This document shows positions 532 through 46,490 of a stretch of DNA of 64,000 nt, in pieces. The first letter of the stretch is position 1; every line of letters starts with the position of its first letter. Source of the stretch: Pseudalkalibacillus sp. SCS-8 (GTDB taxonomy: Bacteria > Bacillota > Bacilli > Bacillales > Fictibacillaceae); assembly GCF_040126055.1 (NCBI RefSeq), contig NZ_CP143541.1, positions 1,736,001 through 1,800,000 on the forward strand, in the 5' to 3' direction. Under the pieces are notes generated by a model that saw only the letters and a list, made by a program, of their open reading frames with translations, was not told the DNA's origin and made no database searches. Both the position numbers and the translations under genes were made by a program.

Positions 532-1290
532 ATGGCCTGGTTTAAACGTCGTCATATCATCACGACATTTTTATTGACGTTGATCATTCTGATCAGCATG
601 AAAGCGATGGAATTCGATTTATCCAAGTTTCGTGATTTCCGAAACATGATTGAATTTTTATCAGGATGGTTTCCGATCAATACCGAAATTATCCCGAAAA
701 TGATAATGGAAAGCCTTGATACGATGGCGATGGCGTTCCTGGGGAGTTTTCTCGGCCTCGTCATCGCGTTGCCACTCGCGTTTGTAGCGGCTCGGAATAC
801 GAGCCGTTCTCCTTTTTTGTATGGATTTTTCCGAATCGGCTTGAGCTTTCTTCGTTCCATACCAGAGATCGTATTCGGATTGATTTTATTAACCGCACTT
901 GGGCTGGGCCCTTTTCCTGCAGTTATTGCAATCATCCTTCACAACATAGGAGTACTCGGTAAGCTAATTTCCGAATTGATTGAAGCTGCGGATGTTGGTC
1001 CTCAGGAAGCGATGAAATCCGTAGGGGCAAGAAGATGGATAGCGAACCTGTTTTCCATTCTTCCGCAAATATGGCCCAACGTGTTATCCCACTACTTTTA
1101 TCGTTTTGAAGTTGCAATCCGCACATCACTCATTCTTGGGTTCATTGGGGGAGGCGGAATCGGCCAGCAGCTGTTCAATCATTTTAAAACATTCCATTAT
1201 CAGGCGGTGGCGGTCGATGTCATTTTGATCATGATCATGGTCATCCTTGTCGATTTTGCTGGTAGTAAAATAAGGGAAACGGTGATTTGA
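532..1290 (+). CDS. phnE: Phosphonate-type ABC transporter permease
   Basis: This 252-residue membrane protein forms the channel of a phosphonate-type importer. It has an N-terminal hydrophobic segment (about residues 9-25), several further membrane helices, and the cytoplasmic EAA loop that docks the ATPase (EAADVGPQEAMKSVGARRW, from about residue 151). A glycine-rich GFIGGGGIGQQL stretch near residue 205 is typical of PhnE. The ATG at 532 sits behind AAGGAG, which overlaps the end of phnD. Its TGA stop overlaps the ATG of phnC, so the two are translationally coupled. Confidence 0.92.
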   Translation: MAWFKRRHIITTFLLTLIILISMKAMEFDLSKFRDFRNMIEFLSGWFPINTEIIPKMIMESLDTMAMAFLGSFLGLVIALPLAFVAARNTSRSPFLYGFFRIGLSFLRSIPEIVFGLILLTALGLGPFPAVIAIILHNIGVLGKLISELIEAADVGPQEAMKSVGARRWIANLFSILPQIWPNVLSHYFYRFEVAIRTSLILGFIGGGGIGQQLFNHFKTFHYQAVAVDVILIMIMVILVDFAGSKIRETVI

Positions 1291-2042
1291 TGGGTAATGA
1301 AGCAATCATCCAACTACAGAACGTTAGCGTACAATACCCTCAATCCGAGCATGTAGCTGTCAACGATCTAAGCCTAGCAATGGAATCCGGTGAATTCATC
1401 TGTGTGTTAGGTAAAAGTGGTGCGGGTAAATCAACGATGATCCGTTGTTTGAATGGTCTACAACGACCAAATGAGGGTAAAGTATTGTTTGAAGGAAACG
1501 ACATTACCGAATATAAAGAAAAAGCTTTACGTGAAGTGCGGACAAACATGGGAATGATCTTTCAGCATTTCAACCTGATTCCGAGACTATCTGTCATGCA
1601 AAATGTGCTGACGGGGACATTCGGTAAGCGAAACGATTGGTTGAACTTGATTGGTTACTTTTATAAAGAGGAAAGGGACGAAGCGCTTAAAGCGATAGAA
1701 GCCGTCGAGTTAGGTCAGCATGTCCATAAGCGGGTGGAGCATTTGAGCGGAGGCCAGAAACAACGGGTGGCAATTGCGCGTGCGCTCCTTCAAAAACCAA
1801 AAGTCTTCCTAGGCGACGAACCGGTCGCAAGCCTTGATCCGGGTACGGCAAACCGGATCTTCCAGCTCATCAAACGGATTCATGAAAAGCATCAGCTGCT
1901 TACATTGATTAACGTACACGATGTGACTTTGGCGAAGAGGTATGCAACCAGGGTTCTTGCGTTAAAAGATGGAAAGCTCATCTTTGATGGGAAACCAGAC
2001 CGAGTGACCGACGACATATTGGAAACGATCTATGAAGAATAA
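1290..2042 (+). CDS. phnC: Phosphonate-type ABC transporter ATP-binding protein
   Basis: This 250-residue ATPase powers the PhnE permease. In order it shows Walker A (GKSGAGKST, about residue 40), a Q-loop (IFQHFN), the ABC signature (LSGGQKQR, about residue 153), Walker B with the catalytic Glu (VFLGDEPVASLD) and the H-loop (NVHD). I chose the ATG at 1290, which overlaps the phnE stop as TGATG; a TTG one codon upstream is also possible. A terminator follows at once. PhnDEC sits beside selenium genes, but nothing in the ATPase tells the substrate. Confidence 0.93.
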   Translation: MGNEAIIQLQNVSVQYPQSEHVAVNDLSLAMESGEFICVLGKSGAGKSTMIRCLNGLQRPNEGKVLFEGNDITEYKEKALREVRTNMGMIFQHFNLIPRLSVMQNVLTGTFGKRNDWLNLIGYFYKEERDEALKAIEAVELGQHVHKRVEHLSGGQKQRVAIARALLQKPKVFLGDEPVASLDPGTANRIFQLIKRIHEKHQLLTLINVHDVTLAKRYATRVLALKDGKLIFDGKPDRVTDDILETIYEE

Positions 2043-2074: not shown

Positions 2075-3127
2075 TTATTTACCTGCATATAAGAAGTATT
2101 CTTGTTTTTCTTTAACAGTTCCGATGATGGAAGTCTCAGATATATCGTGTTCCTTCATTAATTTCACGTATTGTTCAGCTTCATCTGTAGGCATGCTGAT
2201 CAGAAGCCCCCCGGACGTGATCGCGTCGCAGAGCAGCCATTGTTCAAGCTCTGACAATCCATCATATTGTACATCTTCAGCAATCCAGCGATGGTTCGCC
2301 TTCGTACCGCCTGGAACAAAACCACGTTCAGCAAGTTGCATCGTTCCTTCAAGGACCGGTACATCGTTCAAGTGTACTTCCATTGAAACGTTGCTTCCTT
2401 TCGCCATTTCGGATGCATGACCGAGCAAACCGAAGCCTGTCACGTCTGTAACTGCGTTAGGATTGAAATCCGTTAGGAGTTCTGCTGCTGTTTTGTTCAA
2501 TGTCGCCATTACTTCTGAAACGCGCTCGAGCTGTTCAGTGGTCAATCCTTCTTTCTTGATGGCTGTCGTTTGGATACCAACACCGATTGGTTTCGTCAAA
2601 ACGAGGGCATCTCCTGGTTTTGCTCCGACATTTTTGAAGATCCTATCTGGATGGACGACACCTGTAACCGATAAACCGAATTTTGGCTCGTTATCATCAA
2701 TGGAATGTCCACCAGCGATGACGGCACCGGATTCCTTCACTTTATCTGCCGCACCTTTCAGGATTTCAGCAAGGATATCTGGACCAAGTGATTTGATCGG
2801 AAAGCCAAGTATGTTCAAGACGGTTTTTGGTTGACCTCCCATCGCGTAGACATCACTTAATGAGTTGGCTGCAGCGATTTGCCCGAACTGATATGGATCG
2901 TCAACGATTGGCGTAAAGAAGTCGACTGTTTGAATGATTGCTAAATCATCTGTCAGCTTATATACTCCTGCATCATCAGACGTATCTATACCGACAAGTA
3001 GGTTTGGATCTTTTTCACGTTCTGGTAATTGACGCAAAACTTGCGCCAGGTCTTCAGGACCGATTTTGCATCCTCAACCACCTTTTGACGATAAGGTCGT
3101 TAATCGAATTTTTTCTTCCTTATTCAA
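2075..3127 (-). CDS. selD: Selenide, water dikinase SelD, itself a selenoprotein (in-frame TGA at codon 18)
   Basis: SelD makes selenophosphate from selenide and ATP, the selenium donor for selenocysteine and selenouridine. The conventional ORF begins at 3037, but the frame continues upstream through one TGA (3076-3074) to a TTG at 3127, placed 8 bases after AGGAGG. Reading the TGA as Sec gives SSKGGUGCKIG, so Sec is at residue 18 where other SelD proteins have the catalytic Cys or Sec, and the essential Lys follows at residue 21. The full product is 350 residues, the normal SelD length. Downstream are the ATP-binding GIDTSDDAGVYKL and GGHSIDDNE motifs. A SECIS-like hairpin lies 33 nt after the TGA. 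It is divergent from selW and selA. Confidence 0.93.
3031..3047 (-). promoter_or_regulatory. Candidate bacterial SECIS hairpin of selD
   Basis: On the coding strand, GGCGCAA and TTGCGTC pair over 7 bp (one G-U) around a GTT loop. The loop begins 34 nt after the TGA at 3076-3074, with G as its first base. Published bacterial SECIS rules ask for a loop about 16-37 nt after UGA with a G in the first two loop positions, so it fits. The fold was judged by eye. Confidence 0.65.
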
Positions 3128-3233: not shown

Positions 3234-3448
3234 ATGATGTTGATTTTTTCGAAATTCACTCCCTTTCCGCGGGCGAACCGCGAGCCTCACTTCCACAGGA
3301 TGTGGTGGCTTCGACGTTCACCACAGGACGTGGTGGGTTTTATTCGAAGATCCTATGTGATAATTGACCCACATGTTTGCTGCGGGGTCTCGCCTGGCTC
3401 GCTGTTCCCGCAGGAGTGTCGTAAATTTCAGTTCAAAATCAACTTCAT
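3234..3448. repeat. Long imperfect inverted-repeat element in the selD-selW gap
   Basis: This fills most of the 365-base gap between selD and selW. Its ends are inverted copies: ATGATGTTGATTTT (3234-3247) against AAAATCAACTTCAT (3435-3448), with GTTGATTTT matching perfectly. Further in, CTCCCTTTCCGCGGGCGA faces a CGCTGTTCCCGCAGGAG arm. Inside are two near-identical palindromic units, CCACAGGATGTGGTGG and CCACAGGACGTGGTGG. It resembles the dispersed GC-rich hairpin repeats seen in intergenic regions of Bacillaceae. No protein is likely; a 74-codon frame inside it is the product of the repeat. Confidence 0.6.
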
Positions 3449-3492
3449 GAATAACTAATTATTGTAAGTTATAAACTTGAGGAGGAATTTTA

Positions 3493-3735
3493 ATGAGTTA
3501 CAAAGTATCAGTCGAATTCTGCATGCAGTGAAACTATGCACCAAAAGCCGCGAGTTTCGCGGAAGAGCTATTCAATCATTTCCGTTCCGACGTGACATCT
3601 CTTGATTTGATTCCAAGTTCCGGTGGCGCATTCGAAGTCACAGTGAACGGGACGAAATTGTACTCAAAGCTTGATACGGGTGAATTCCCTGACAACGACA
3701 AGCTATTTGCTGATATTGAAAAATTGAACCGATAA
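3493..3735 (+). CDS. SelW-like Rdx-family selenoprotein with CxxU redox motif (TGA read as Sec)
   Basis: No ordinary ORF caller reports this gene because codon 13 is TGA (3529-3531). Reading it as Sec gives an 80-residue protein starting MSYKVSVEFCMQUNYAPKA. The CMQU motif sits at the end of the first beta strand, exactly where SelW/SelT/SelH (Rdx, thioredoxin-like fold) proteins carry CxxU or CxxC. The C-terminal half has the family signature GGAFEVTVNGTKLYSK followed by the GEFPD turn. The ATG at 3493 is preceded by GAGGAGG with suitable spacing. The codon use after the TGA stays coding-like up to TAA at 3733. selA follows and selD lies upstream, so the Sec machinery surrounds its substrate. 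Rdx proteins are thought to be thiol oxidoreductases, but the bacterial role is unsettled. Confidence 0.93.
3548..3562 (+). promoter_or_regulatory. Candidate bacterial SECIS hairpin of the selW-like gene
   Basis: CCGCG (3548-3552) pairs perfectly with CGCGG (3558-3562) around an AGTTT loop. There are 21 nt between the TGA and the loop, and G is the second loop base, both within the known rules for bacterial SECIS elements recognised by SelB. Confidence 0.65.
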
Positions 3736-3740
3736 TCGTG

Positions 3741-3770
3741 ACACCTCCTGAGGATTCCCTGGAGGTGTTC
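3741..3770 (+). terminator. Hairpin between the selW-like gene and selA
   Basis: ACACCTCC (3741-3748) pairs with GGAGGTGT (3761-3768), followed by TCTT. The T-run is short, so it may be a leaky terminator that makes selW more abundant than selA, or an mRNA-stabilising stem. Confidence 0.5.
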
Positions 3771-3804
3771 TTACGCCTTTAGAGGAATGATGGGAGTGAA
3801 TGAG

Positions 3805-5202
3805 ATGAAAGAACAACTACGTTTATTACCAGCCGTACATATGATCCAGGCAGATCCACGTTTCAAAATGGCTGCTGAAGAAAGTGATTTTACAGAAAGC
3901 GGGCTGACTGTAATCGTCCAGGATATCCTGAATGATTTACGGGAGCGAATCCTGAATGGGGAATACGTGGGTTGTGAGACGAAAGAGAAAATGATCGATC
4001 TCATCTTTCAGAAGATTGGAGACCATATAACAACGAACGGTAGCTTTGAATTAAAGCCTGTCATCAATGCAACAGGAGTCGTCATCCATACCAATCTAGG
4101 TCGTTCGAGATTGAGTGAGGATGCTCTTAAGCAGATGAATCGAGTTGCAAGGCATTATTCAAACCTTGAATACAATCTCTCGGAAGGGAAGCGGGGTTCA
4201 AGACATGACCTAGTTGATGGTCTCTTGCAGGACATCACGGGAGCAGAGGCAGCGATGGTCGTCAATAACAATGCAGCTGCTGTCTTTCTTGTGCTAAGGG
4301 CTTTAGCAAAGGACCGGAGTGTTGTCGTATCTCGTGGTGAACTCGTTGAAATTGGTGGCTCATTCAGGGTGTCTTCTATTATGGAAGAGAGTGGTGCCCA
4401 TTTGACAGAAGTAGGAACGACCAACAAGACACATTTGCATGATTATGATGCTGCCATTGATGAATGGACAGCCATGCTTATGAAAGTCCATACGTCCAAC
4501 TTCAAAGTCGTTGGATTTACAGATTCTGTACAGACAGAAAAGTTGGTAGAACTGGCTTCCCGCTATGAAAACCTTTTGACATATGAAGACCTTGGGAGTG
4601 GAGCGCTATACGATTTTGAGAAAGAGGGGATCGGGGATGAACCTCTTGTCAGTAAAGTGATTGCGACAGGAGTTGACCTCATCACGTTCAGCGGAGACAA
4701 GTTGTTAGGAGGACCGCAATGCGGTGTGATTGCAGGAAAGAAAGCGTTGATCGATAAGCTGAAAAAGCATCAGCTCGCTCGAGTGCTCAGAGTCGACAAA
4801 TTTACGTTGGCTGCGCTGGAAGCGACCCTAGTTGCGTACAAGTATGGACAAATTGATGAGATTCCTACTGTCCGTGACATTTTACGCTCAGCTGAAGACA
4901 TAAAAATACAAGCAGAACGTTTCATATCAAAAGCATCAAAGCTGACAAACCTCTCAATGGACCTGCTGGAGAGTACATCTAGAATTGGTGGGGGCACAAT
5001 GCCTGAGGTTGAGCTTCCGACATATGTCGTTTCGGTCCGGCCTGAGCGTCTGACGAGTGAGGAACTGTTCAATGCGTTACGGTCTGCTGAAATACCCGTC
5101 ATTGGACGAATCAAGGAAGAGCAGGTCATTTTGGATCTTCGGACCGTCACCCAAGAAGAGGAAGATGAAATTATCAGAACGTTAGAATCCATTTCGGTTT
5201 AA
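3805..5202 (+). CDS. selA: L-seryl-tRNA(Sec) selenium transferase
   Basis: SelA is a PLP enzyme that turns Ser-tRNA(Sec) into Sec-tRNA(Sec) using selenophosphate from SelD. The 465-residue product has the SelA N-terminal domain (MKEQLRLLPAVHMI), the substrate segment PVINATGVVIHTNLGRS, and the PLP-binding lysine in TFSGDKLLGGPQCG (about Lys299). I chose the ATG at 3805, 6-7 bases after GGGAGTG, because it gives the usual SelA start; ATGs at 3787 and 3790 are also in frame. It follows selW after a hairpin. selB, normally next to selA, is absent here, so the elongation factor and tRNA-Sec must be elsewhere. Confidence 0.95.
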   Translation: MKEQLRLLPAVHMIQADPRFKMAAEESDFTESGLTVIVQDILNDLRERILNGEYVGCETKEKMIDLIFQKIGDHITTNGSFELKPVINATGVVIHTNLGRSRLSEDALKQMNRVARHYSNLEYNLSEGKRGSRHDLVDGLLQDITGAEAAMVVNNNAAAVFLVLRALAKDRSVVVSRGELVEIGGSFRVSSIMEESGAHLTEVGTTNKTHLHDYDAAIDEWTAMLMKVHTSNFKVVGFTDSVQTEKLVELASRYENLLTYEDLGSGALYDFEKEGIGDEPLVSKVIATGVDLITFSGDKLLGGPQCGVIAGKKALIDKLKKHQLARVLRVDKFTLAALEATLVAYKYGQIDEIPTVRDILRSAEDIKIQAERFISKASKLTNLSMDLLESTSRIGGGTMPEVELPTYVVSVRPERLTSEELFNALRSAEIPVIGRIKEEQVILDLRTVTQEEEDEIIRTLESISV

Positions 5203-6267: not shown

Positions 6268-8979
6268 ATGAGCACAAACGATGTTTATAATGCAAAAAAG
6301 ACATTTGATGCGAACGGAAAGACGTATCATTATTATGACTTGAAAGCGCTTGACCAAGCGGGAGTCGGAAACACATCCCGTCTACCTTATTCTGTTAAGG
6401 TATTGTTAGAATCTGTTTTACGTCAATATGACGGTAGAGTAATTGACAAAGAACACATTGAAAACCTTGCGAAGTGGGGAACAAAGGACGTTAAAGACAT
6501 TGATGTACCTTTCAAACCTTCCCGTGTCATTCTACAAGACTTCACAGGTGTTCCAGCTGTTGTTGACCTGGCATCATTACGTAAGGCAATGGCGGATATG
6601 GGTGGGTCACCAGATCAGATCAACCCTGAAATTCCAGTTGATCTTGTCATCGACCACTCTGTACAAGTTGATAAGCACGGAACGGACGATGCGTTGAAAT
6701 TCAACATGAAACGTGAATTCGAACGTAACCTTGAGCGTTACAAATTCTTGCGTTGGGCACAAACGTCCTTCGACAACTACCGTGCTGTACCACCTGCAAC
6801 AGGTATCGTACACCAGGTAAACCTTGAATACTTAGCCTCTGTTGTTGGTGCTCACGAGGCAGATGGAGAAACAGTAGCATATCCGGATTCTCTAGTCGGT
6901 ACAGATTCCCATACGACAATGATCAACGGAATCGGTGTACTTGGCTGGGGTGTAGGTGGAATTGAAGCGGAAGCAGGAATGCTTGGCCAGCCATCTTACT
7001 TCCCGGTACCGGAAGTCATCGGTGTGAAATTGACTGGTGAAATGCCTGAAGGAACGACAGCAACAGACCTTGCATTGAAAGTGACGCAAGTTCTTCGTAA
7101 GAAAAACGTTGTCGGTAAGTTCGTCGAATTCTTCGGACCAGGCCTTGCAGATATGACGCTTGCTGACCGTGCGACGATTTCCAACATGGCGCCTGAGTAC
7201 GGTGCAACTTGCGGATTCTTCCCGGTTGACGATGAAACCTTGAACTACATGCGTTTGACTGGACGCTCTCCAGAACAAGTCGAGCTGGTTGAGAAGTATA
7301 CAAAAGCAAATGGAATGTTCTACACACCTGGAACAGCTGATCCAGAGTTCACAGATGTTGTTGAATTGAACCTTTCTGAGCTTGAGCCGAACCTATCTGG
7401 ACCGAAACGTCCGCAAGATTTGATTCCACTTTCTGAAATGAAAGATGCGTTCAACCGTGCATTGGTTGCACCAGCTGGAAACAGCGGATTCGGTTTAGAA
7501 AAAGACGAAATCAACAAGTCCGTTGAAATCAAGCACCCGAACGGTAAAGTTTCCAACATGAAGACTGGAGACCTAGCGATCGCTGCAATTACAAGTTGTA
7601 CGAACACGTCCAATCCTAGTGTTATGCTCGGAGCTGGACTCATCGCGAAAAAAGCGGTTGAGAAAGGCCTCGAAGTTCCTGAGTATGTGAAAACAAGCTT
7701 GGCGCCAGGATCCAAGGTTGTTACAGGTTACCTTGAAGAATCCGGTTTAATGCCTTACATGGAAAAGCTCGGATTCAACCTCGTTGGTTACGGCTGTACG
7801 ACATGTATCGGTAACTCCGGTCCATTGGCTGAAGAAATCGAAGAAGCAATTGCTGAAAGCGATCTTATCGTATCTTCTGTCCTATCTGGTAACCGTAACT
7901 TCGAAGGACGTATCCACCCGCTTGTAAAAGCGAACTACTTGGCTTCACCGCCACTTGTTGTCGCTTATGCTTTGGCTGGTTCCGTCAACTTCGATCTTCA
8001 AAAGGATTCATTCGGTAAAGATAAAGACGGAAATGACGTGTACTTCAAGGATCTATGGCCAACTACTGCTGAAATCAAGGAAGCGATGGATGACGCTGTT
8101 AAGCCTGAACTGTTCAAGAAAGAATATGAGCGCGTATTCGATGATAACGAAGAGTGGAACGATCTCGATACGACTGAAGAAGAGCTATATAGCTGGGATG
8201 ACGACTCTACGTACATCCAAAACCCACCATTCTTCCAAGGCTTGTCTAAAGAGCCTGGCAAGATTGAAAGTCTCAATAACATGCGCGTTGTAGGTAAGTT
8301 CGGTGACTCTGTCACAACGGACCACATCTCTCCGGCAGGGGCGATCGCAAAAGACAGCCCTGCAGGTAAATACTTGATGGATAACGGCGTCAAGCCTTCC
8401 GAATTCAACTCATACGGTTCTCGTCGTGGTAACCATGAAGTTATGATGCGTGGTACGTTTGCAAACATCCGTATCCGTAACCAAATCGCCCCTGGAACAG
8501 AGGGTGGATGGACGACTTACTGGCCGACAGAAGAAGTCATGTACATCTACGATGCTTGCATGAAGTATCAACAGGATGGTACTGGACTTGCCGTACTAGC
8601 TGGTAAGGATTACGGAATGGGAAGCTCCCGTGACTGGGCTGCGAAAGGTACAAACCTTCTTGGCATCAAGACAGTCATCGCGGAAAGCTTCGAGCGTATC
8701 CACAGAAGTAACCTTGTATTGATGGGTGTATTACCGCTTCAATTCAAGGATGGAGACAGTGCTGAATCACTTGGATTGACAGGAAAAGAAACATTCGATG
8801 TCGACATTGATGAGAATGTGAAGCCACGTCAATTGTTGAAAGTGACTGCAACAGATGAAGAAGGGAACAAGAAAGAATTTGAAGTTGTTGCTCGATTCGA
8901 CAGTGAAGTTGAAATCGACTACTACCGTCACGGTGGTATCCTTCAAATGGTTCTCCGTAACAAACTTCAAAACGCTTAA
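6268..8979 (+). CDS. citB: Aconitate hydratase (aconitase A)
   Basis: Aconitase interconverts citrate and isocitrate in the TCA cycle. The 903-residue length equals the AcnA/IRP1 type. The three [4Fe-4S] cluster cysteines are visible: Cys444 in SCTNTSNP and Cys510/Cys513 in [10 protein letters not shown]. Other conserved blocks are [23 protein letters not shown] and [16 protein letters not shown] of the C-terminal swivel domain. The ATG at 6268 follows AGGAGG. In B. subtilis the protein also binds RNA when the cluster is lost, and this long form could as well. The promoter carries a CcpC-type site. A strong terminator follows. Confidence 0.98.
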
Positions 8980-46373: not shown

Positions 46374-46409
46374 AAAAGGTGATGTCTCCTTGCCGTTATC
46401 AATGGAGGC

Positions 46410-46490
46410 ACTCGGGCATGCTGTGGGTTGAAAAACCTTAGACGCTGGTCGTCGAAAGTGTGTTGTGAGGATGGGTTGAATGCCCTGTTT
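46410..46490 (+). ncRNA. EAR element (eps-associated RNA, antitermination)
   Basis: This sits in the epsB-epsC gap, exactly where the EAR (epsC RNA) element is known from B. subtilis and its relatives. The outer stem GGGCAT (46414-46419) pairs with ATGCCC (46480-46485). Inside are GGGTT-GAAA-AACC and GACG-CTGGT-CGTC hairpins and the conserved-looking TGTGTTGTGAGG. EAR lets RNA polymerase pass terminators in the eps operon. I identify it from position and stems; a covariance search was not possible. Confidence 0.82.

Follow-up and report, generated by a model that had tools for sequence, protein, structure and literature searches.

A predicted SelW-like selenoprotein gene between selD and selA in Pseudalkalibacillus sp. 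SCS-8, and its occurrence with selenocysteine genes in a Bacillus-type order

The selW locus and its neighbourhood

The selW-like gene of Pseudalkalibacillus sp. SCS-8 was found in a 64 000-nt stretch of DNA (hereafter the window) that corresponds to positions 1736001–1800000 of a 3.62 Mb genome assembled as a single contig. Read with TGA as selenocysteine (Sec, U), the gene translates to MSYKVSVEFCMQUNYAPKAASFAEELFNHFRSDVTSLDLIPSSGGAFEVTVNGTKLYSKLDTGEFPDNDKLFADIEKLNR, i.e. 80 residues, followed by TAA. An initial annotation had claimed a frame of 80 codons in which codon 13 is TGA, giving the motif CMQU, a strong ribosome site, and a neighbouring selA; all of these were recovered, the frame by translation of the gene with TGA as U, and the other two as listed in Table 1. 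Its claim that normal ORF finding would miss the gene also held, as the frame is interrupted at codon 13 under translation table 11, and the window's own selW entry in the protein database (P0047) is a 47-residue remnant beginning past the TGA.

Table 1. Features of the selW region and further elements identified in the window; positions are those of the window.
Feature	Position	Strand	Basis or remark
PhnDEC-type ABC transporter, window part	532–2042	+	between selB and selD; also at L009:13626–14525
selD, selenophosphate synthetase	2075–3127	-	divergent from selW; in-frame TGA (U18); assigned by ORF and tblastn similarity to selD of relatives
Predicted SECIS of selD	3030–3048	-	8-bp stem, loop GUU, 33 nt from UGA to loop
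In-frame TGA of selD, predicted Sec codon	3074–3076	-	U18 in GGUGCKIGP; translation
Bacillaceae-1 RNA (RF01690)	3292–3359	-	between selD and selW; 57.5 bits, gathering score 35
Ribosome-binding site AGGAGG	3480–3485	+	7 nt 5′ of the selW ATG; read from the sequence
selW-like (Rdx) selenoprotein gene, predicted	3493–3735	+	80 codons, UGA at codon 13; PF10262 and TIGR02174 over cut-off
In-frame TGA of selW, predicted Sec codon	3529–3531	+	U13 of CMQU; one TGA in 107/107 order-wide Rdx matches
Predicted bacterial SECIS of selW	3548–3562	+	6-bp stem CCGCGA/UCGCGG, loop GUU, 22 nt from UGA to loop, -9.3 kcal/mol
Hairpin between selW and selA	3736–3778	+	-17.8 kcal/mol, z -3.32
selA, Sec synthase	3787–5202	+	TIGR00474, 560.5 bits; 51 nt after the selW stop if the first ATG is used
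epsC RNA element (RF01735)	46377–46486	+	108.2 bits

The selW product exceeded the cut-offs of the Pfam Rdx model PF10262 (78.8 bits against 22.6, E 3.6e-22) and of the SelW/T/H model TIGR02174 (67.5 bits against 34.2), and it was the sole Rdx match in the genome. PDB entry 2fa8 from Agrobacterium was the best solved relative (sequence E 9.9e-14). The AlphaFold2 model, based on 40 aligned rows (pLDDT 87.1, pTM 0.73), gave in Foldseek a TM-score of 0.91 to 2fa8, with mouse SelW (2npb) next at 0.66 and thioredoxins lower. The top 21 PDB chains (E ≤ 0.001) represented the six entries 2fa8, 2obk, 2oka, 3dex, 2ojl and 2p0g, each of which also matched the product by sequence. Within the model, C10-M-Q-U13 occupies the loop between strand 1 (residues 3–10) and helix 1 (residues 16–30), and C10 was invariant across the 40 aligned rows. 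A thioredoxin-like Rdx fold is predicted on the basis of this model, and the Rdx membership proposed in the initial annotation is consistent with both family models, the 2fa8 sequence match and the predicted fold.

The genome contains the complete set of selA, selB, selC (tRNA-Sec) and selD. The tRNA-Sec gene, with anticodon tca, is located at genome positions 1731276–1731368 on the minus strand (59.5 bits, gathering score 47), and selB at 1732706–1734580 on the plus strand (357.9 bits, cut-off 242.25). Both lie within 4.8 kb to the left of the window, while selD and selA flank selW, and the four Sec genes together with selW are comprised within about 10 kb. Among relatives, Sec genes other than selA were present near selW, within flanks of up to 6 kb, in a varying share of the best 80 of 151 named loci (selD in 57, selB in 31, and tRNA-Sec in 17).

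Two further loci adjoin the Sec genes. In the PhnDEC-type transporter between selB and selD, PhnE and PhnC scored over their NCBIfam cut-offs and the binding protein over TIGR01098; against the putative selenate binding protein model TIGR04553, the binding protein reached 185.7 bits, below the cut-off of 250. Similar transporter proteins were identified upstream of selW in 10 of the 80 named loci (phnE and phnC in 10, phnD in 9). The transporter is a possible selenium importer. Adjoining selB, a family 4 glycosyltransferase (L009:12594–13622, plus strand) displayed near-full-length similarity to two models without reaching their cut-offs, scoring 103.7 bits (cut-off 300) for the SenB selenosugar synthase and 243.5 bits (cut-off 400) for the GPMC-system glycosyltransferase. 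Matches to it were present in 9 of the 80 named loci, seven on the plus strand (six of these beside phnE and phnC) and two on the minus strand. Its location beside selB and selD may point to another selenium product.

Codon 13 and the candidate SECIS of selW

The in-frame TGA was conserved at the genus, family and order levels. Rdx genes with one TGA each were present in 7 of the 8 genomes of the same genus, and the sole genome without Rdx (G003) was also without a selA match. Genomes of the same family carried the gene in 26 of 34 cases, again with one TGA each, and of 249 evenly drawn genomes of the same order, 107 had Rdx, with exactly one in-frame TGA in all 107. In the family of genome G145, 160 of the 193 genomes matched P0037, with one TGA in all but one of the matches listed. 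At the DNA level, codon 13 was TGA in 157 of 158 loci, TGT in one, and TGG in none. Since the selW loci from the two genome samples overlap, stretches were deduplicated by sequence, which resulted in 116 and 141 distinct ones. What looks like an insertion in selW of L213 is a stretch of N characters in the database record.

Loss of the frame after the TGA in relatives would have spoken against the initial annotation; the frame was kept, and the SelW residues past the UGA were conserved in the relatives translated. Cys or Sec at residue 13 was likewise recovered in homologues, as TGA or TGT in the loci above, as Cys in P0037 and P0043, and as a CxxC motif in 2fa8. A nonsense mutation that has left selW a pseudogene in this genome would account for the break under table 11 and for the 47-residue remnant being all that the database holds for the genome. 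Such a mutation is scarcely credible against one in-frame TGA in every one of the 107 order-wide Rdx genes, its placement at codon 13 in nearly all loci, and the conserved residues downstream. The UGA frame of selW is not due to chance, because the Pfam Rdx match (E-value above) is joined by this single in-frame TGA throughout the order.

Downstream of the UGA, a candidate bacterial SECIS was identified (Table 1). The accessible text of PMC13188914 gives the rules for bacterial SECIS elements as a loop of 3–9 nt, a stem of 4–16 bp, G within the first two loop bases, a distance of 16–37 nt from the UGA, and a minimum free energy of ≤ -7.5 kcal/mol. The selW element conforms to all of them, with a 3-nt loop starting with G, a 6-bp stem, 22 nt to the UGA, and -9.3 kcal/mol. 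The 17-nt hairpin folded better than its shuffles (z -3.16), while the 52-nt stretch starting from the TGA folded no better than shuffled sequences (z -0.55; 51 of 200 as good). It is covariation that carries the case for the SECIS, the fold of the 52-nt stretch being unexceptional alone.

In two of the six stem pairs, both partners are third codon positions, and in 116 of 116 distinct selW genes these wobble pairs were maintained via synonymous changes. The pair between the codons of A19 and A23 was C-G in 89 genes, T-A in 25 and T-G in 2, and the pair between A20 and F22 was G-C in 105, A-T in 10 and T-A in one; neither was broken in any gene. Codon usage followed the pairing. Alanine codons outside the stem in the same genes were GCA (129), GCT (75), GCG (47) and GCC (19), when within the stem residue 19 used GCC or GCT only, residue 20 GCG (102), GCA (10) or GCT (1), and residue 23 GCG (88) or GCA (25). 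In a shuffle test of each wobble pair, which ignores descent, none of 20,000 shuffles was as good. When mapped onto a tree of 81 SelA rows, at least 8 changes were counted at A19 and at least 7 at A23, never in opposite ways in the pairs drawn. The tree-aware test counted four supported independent changes for A19-A23 and one for A20-F22 (sign test p 0.25 and 1, respectively); these numbers do not reach significance, and they are low because the relatives share descent.

When the 140 distinct TGA-bearing stretches were pooled, 138 paired at all six stem positions (128 with Watson-Crick pairs throughout, 10 with one G-U) and two at five of six, and all TGA-bearing forms listed had G as the first loop base. 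The sole TGT-bearing stretch paired at four of the six positions. This stretch is from genome G304 and encodes a protein of the same sequence as P0037, which one source assigns to Cytobacillus eiseniae. Its stem reads CAGCCA-GUU-UUGCGG, in which both wobble pairs are gone and the residues KAASFAE are unchanged. In the nearest relatives that the search gave for G304 (82% and 79% identity), the codon is TGA and the stem is intact; G304 itself retains selA, and its selD still has TGA at the Sec site. If the stem serves Sec insertion, SECIS decay along with a Cys codon is to be expected. The simplest reading of this single case would be a change from Sec to Cys followed by decay of the SECIS. A change of this kind is called rare, and known mainly in FdhA and SelD, in a 2026 review (PMC13188914); the Cys form with its decayed SECIS would be a clean example.

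The selD gene is the second predicted selenoprotein gene of the locus. Its codon 18 was TGA in each of the 65 loci in which selD could be seen, which represent 56 distinct stretches. In these 56, the triloop located 33 nt past this UGA was GUU (41), GUG (12), GUC (2) or GUA (1), and the five loop-proximal pairs were all standard in 53 stretches and four of five in the remaining 3. The selW and selD elements of the window have GCRAGUUUYGC in common, from which one SelB recognition loop common to both genes may be inferred. The core GCRAGTTTYGC was also used to look for additional selenoprotein genes and was rejected for this purpose: seven hits in the own genome, including selD and selW, compare with 15 for the reversed control, and the core is thus without genome-wide search power.

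The protein database presents the UGA site otherwise. Among 64 database relatives, 48 have W at the site, 14 begin past it (including P0047 of the own genome), and two, P0037 and P0043, have C. The W entries most likely originate from gene callers that used genetic code 4 on short contigs, as the DNA was never TGG in the 158 loci. With most of its database relatives cut short or misread, a selenoprotein common in a culturable group is easily overlooked. Taken at face value, the 48 W entries would favour decoding of the UGA as tryptophan, or its passage by a near-cognate tRNA, instead of Sec insertion. Against this stand the codon itself, which varies to TGT once and never to TGG, the presence of tRNA-Sec, selA, selB and selD, and a stem-loop that is kept with TGA and lost with TGT, all of which make the tryptophan reading very improbable. 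A UGA acting as a plain stop was rejected alongside the pseudogene and tryptophan readings.

A further alternative is that the UGA is mainly regulatory: ribosomes that pass or halt at this codon would signal the selenium supply and thereby tune selA, which lies downstream, and the protein would be a by-product. Gene order fits with this, with selA following selW on the same strand in all 80 named loci (the best 80 of 151), and so does the strong hairpin that separates the two genes in the window. However, the protein is conserved over its full length, including the fold and CxxU, which would be needless in a leader, and G304 has a Cys codon yet keeps the protein. Distance also argues against regulation of this kind: in the same 80 loci, the selA match starts less than 200 bp past selW in 28 and at least 450 bp past it in 50. 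In the one locus of the latter group that was read by table 11, L041 of a Bacillus relative, an opposite-strand ORF of 132 residues (6326–6724, minus strand) lies in between, a place taken in the window by the hairpin alone. A mainly regulatory UGA hence appears improbable, when regulatory and protein roles of selW could be compatible. A minus-strand frame between selW and selA in L062 is similar by eye to the 132-residue ORF of L041. No second selenoprotein gene was evident between selW and selA in these two inspected loci.

Sec insertion at the selW UGA is considered likely on this comparative sequence evidence. With a probability of roughly 0.93, the locus codes for an 80-residue Rdx (SelW-like) protein in which UGA-13 is read as Sec via the conserved downstream stem-loop, the product likely being a small CxxU redox protein. 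According to established bacterial Sec decoding, SelA would make Sec on tRNA-Sec using selenophosphate from SelD, and SelB with Sec-tRNA(Sec) would bind the GUU loop and deliver Sec to the ribosome at the UGA. As judged from the predicted fold and the motif, C10 and U13 may then be joined in a reversible selenenylsulfide, through which electrons would pass to and from thiol partners.

SelW, SelB and formate dehydrogenase in the order

SelB was over the cut-off in 115 of the 249 order genomes. Rdx was present in 106 of these 115, and SelB in 106 of the 107 Rdx genomes (Fisher p 2.4e-58, a value that ignores descent); conversely, Rdx was missing in 133 of the 134 genomes without SelB. The one genome with selW and without a SelB hit (G230) is an assembly in 480 contigs, and it has selA. 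Nine SelB genomes were without Rdx (G041, G078, G086, G092, G134, G156, G214, G238 and G254). Except for G134, their selA loci were inspected, and no selW was found in the selA loci of these eight, each of which had selA.

Formate dehydrogenase FdhA of any kind (E 1e-150) was identified in 85 of the 115 SelB genomes and in 78 of the 134 genomes without SelB. Thirty SelB genomes had no FdhA match at this threshold, and SelW was present in 28 of them. Among the FdhA matches listed order-wide, most were without TGA and at least 11 had it. No Sec-containing FdhA was found in the own genome, in which the FdhA-like hits were without TGA and below the family cut-off.

In the accessible text of a 2006 survey (PMC1794560), FdhA or SelD is held to maintain the Sec trait, and FdhA is reported in 67 of 75 Sec organisms, and a 2016 survey (PMC5029168) counts 35 organisms with SelW-like proteins and 822 with FdhA. 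Judging from the gene counts above, this balance of FdhA over SelW looks reversed in the present order. According to published surveys (PMC1794560, PMC13188914), selenoproteins are seldom kept by aerobic bacteria. The chances seem about even that Sec decoding in this Bacillus-type order is sustained by the SelW-like protein as its client and not by formate dehydrogenase. If so, selenium use in the order would serve a small redox protein and not formate oxidation. SelD-Sec accompanied SelW-Sec wherever both were in view, and SelW and SelD are therefore not separable as keepers of the Sec trait. Since SelW tracks SelB almost one to one, what keeps Sec decoding is testable via deletion of one small gene.

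Comparison with known SelW-like proteins and selenoproteins

SelW-like proteins have been counted among the bacterial selenoprotein families since 2006 (PMC1794560), and they are given as PF10262 with a CxxU motif in the accessible text of two reviews (PMC9312934, PMC13188914). Three selenoproteins were counted in Bacillales in 2006, unnamed in the text seen of that survey (PMC1794560), which may include an earlier sighting of SelW in Bacillales. A literature search combining Bacillaceae, selenoprotein and selenocysteine returned a single paper, the title of which concerns tick flora. The description of such proteins in Bacillaceae as sparse, made in the initial annotation, agrees with the literature searched, but the gene itself is common in the group. 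No description of the order-wide selW distribution was found in the openly accessible literature searched. Bacterial CxxU SelW-like proteins being already known, what seems new is the extent, with selW tracking selB far better than FdhA does.

The mouse selenoprotein W (2npb) resembles the present protein in its Rdx fold (TM 0.66), and it is distant in sequence (E 0.013). It carries the CxxU motif as well, and its SECIS is of the eukaryotic type, in the 3′ UTR. Atu0228 of Agrobacterium tumefaciens (2fa8) is the best match by both sequence and fold, but it has Cys (CTQC) where the present protein has U13. With 73.6 bits against the Campylobacter SelW equivalog model NF041051 (cut-off 88), the selW product is not assigned to that equivalog. 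Campylobacter jejuni also belongs to a different phylum from the present host.

The SelW of C. jejuni (CJnc60) is translated past its UGA according to Ribo-seq and mass spectrometry peptides reported in the accessible text of PMC11955535. It is alike in its length of about 80 aa and in having been missed by annotation; the UGA is read by tRNA-Sec there (PMC11955535), whereas this is predicted here. Compared to the bacterial SelW-like family as described in the available text of PMC1794560, PMC9312934 and PMC13188914, the present protein shares Rdx, CxxU and one Sec, and only its lineage and genomic context differ, the gene being flanked by selD and selA in Bacillus-type genomes. In contrast to the few SelW-like proteins of the 2016 survey (35 organisms, PMC5029168, available text), the gene is common here, with 107 of 249 order genomes. 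Like FdhA as treated in the portion available of PMC1794560, it is a selenoprotein tied to Sec genes, the difference being that in this order SelW, not FdhA, tracks SelB.
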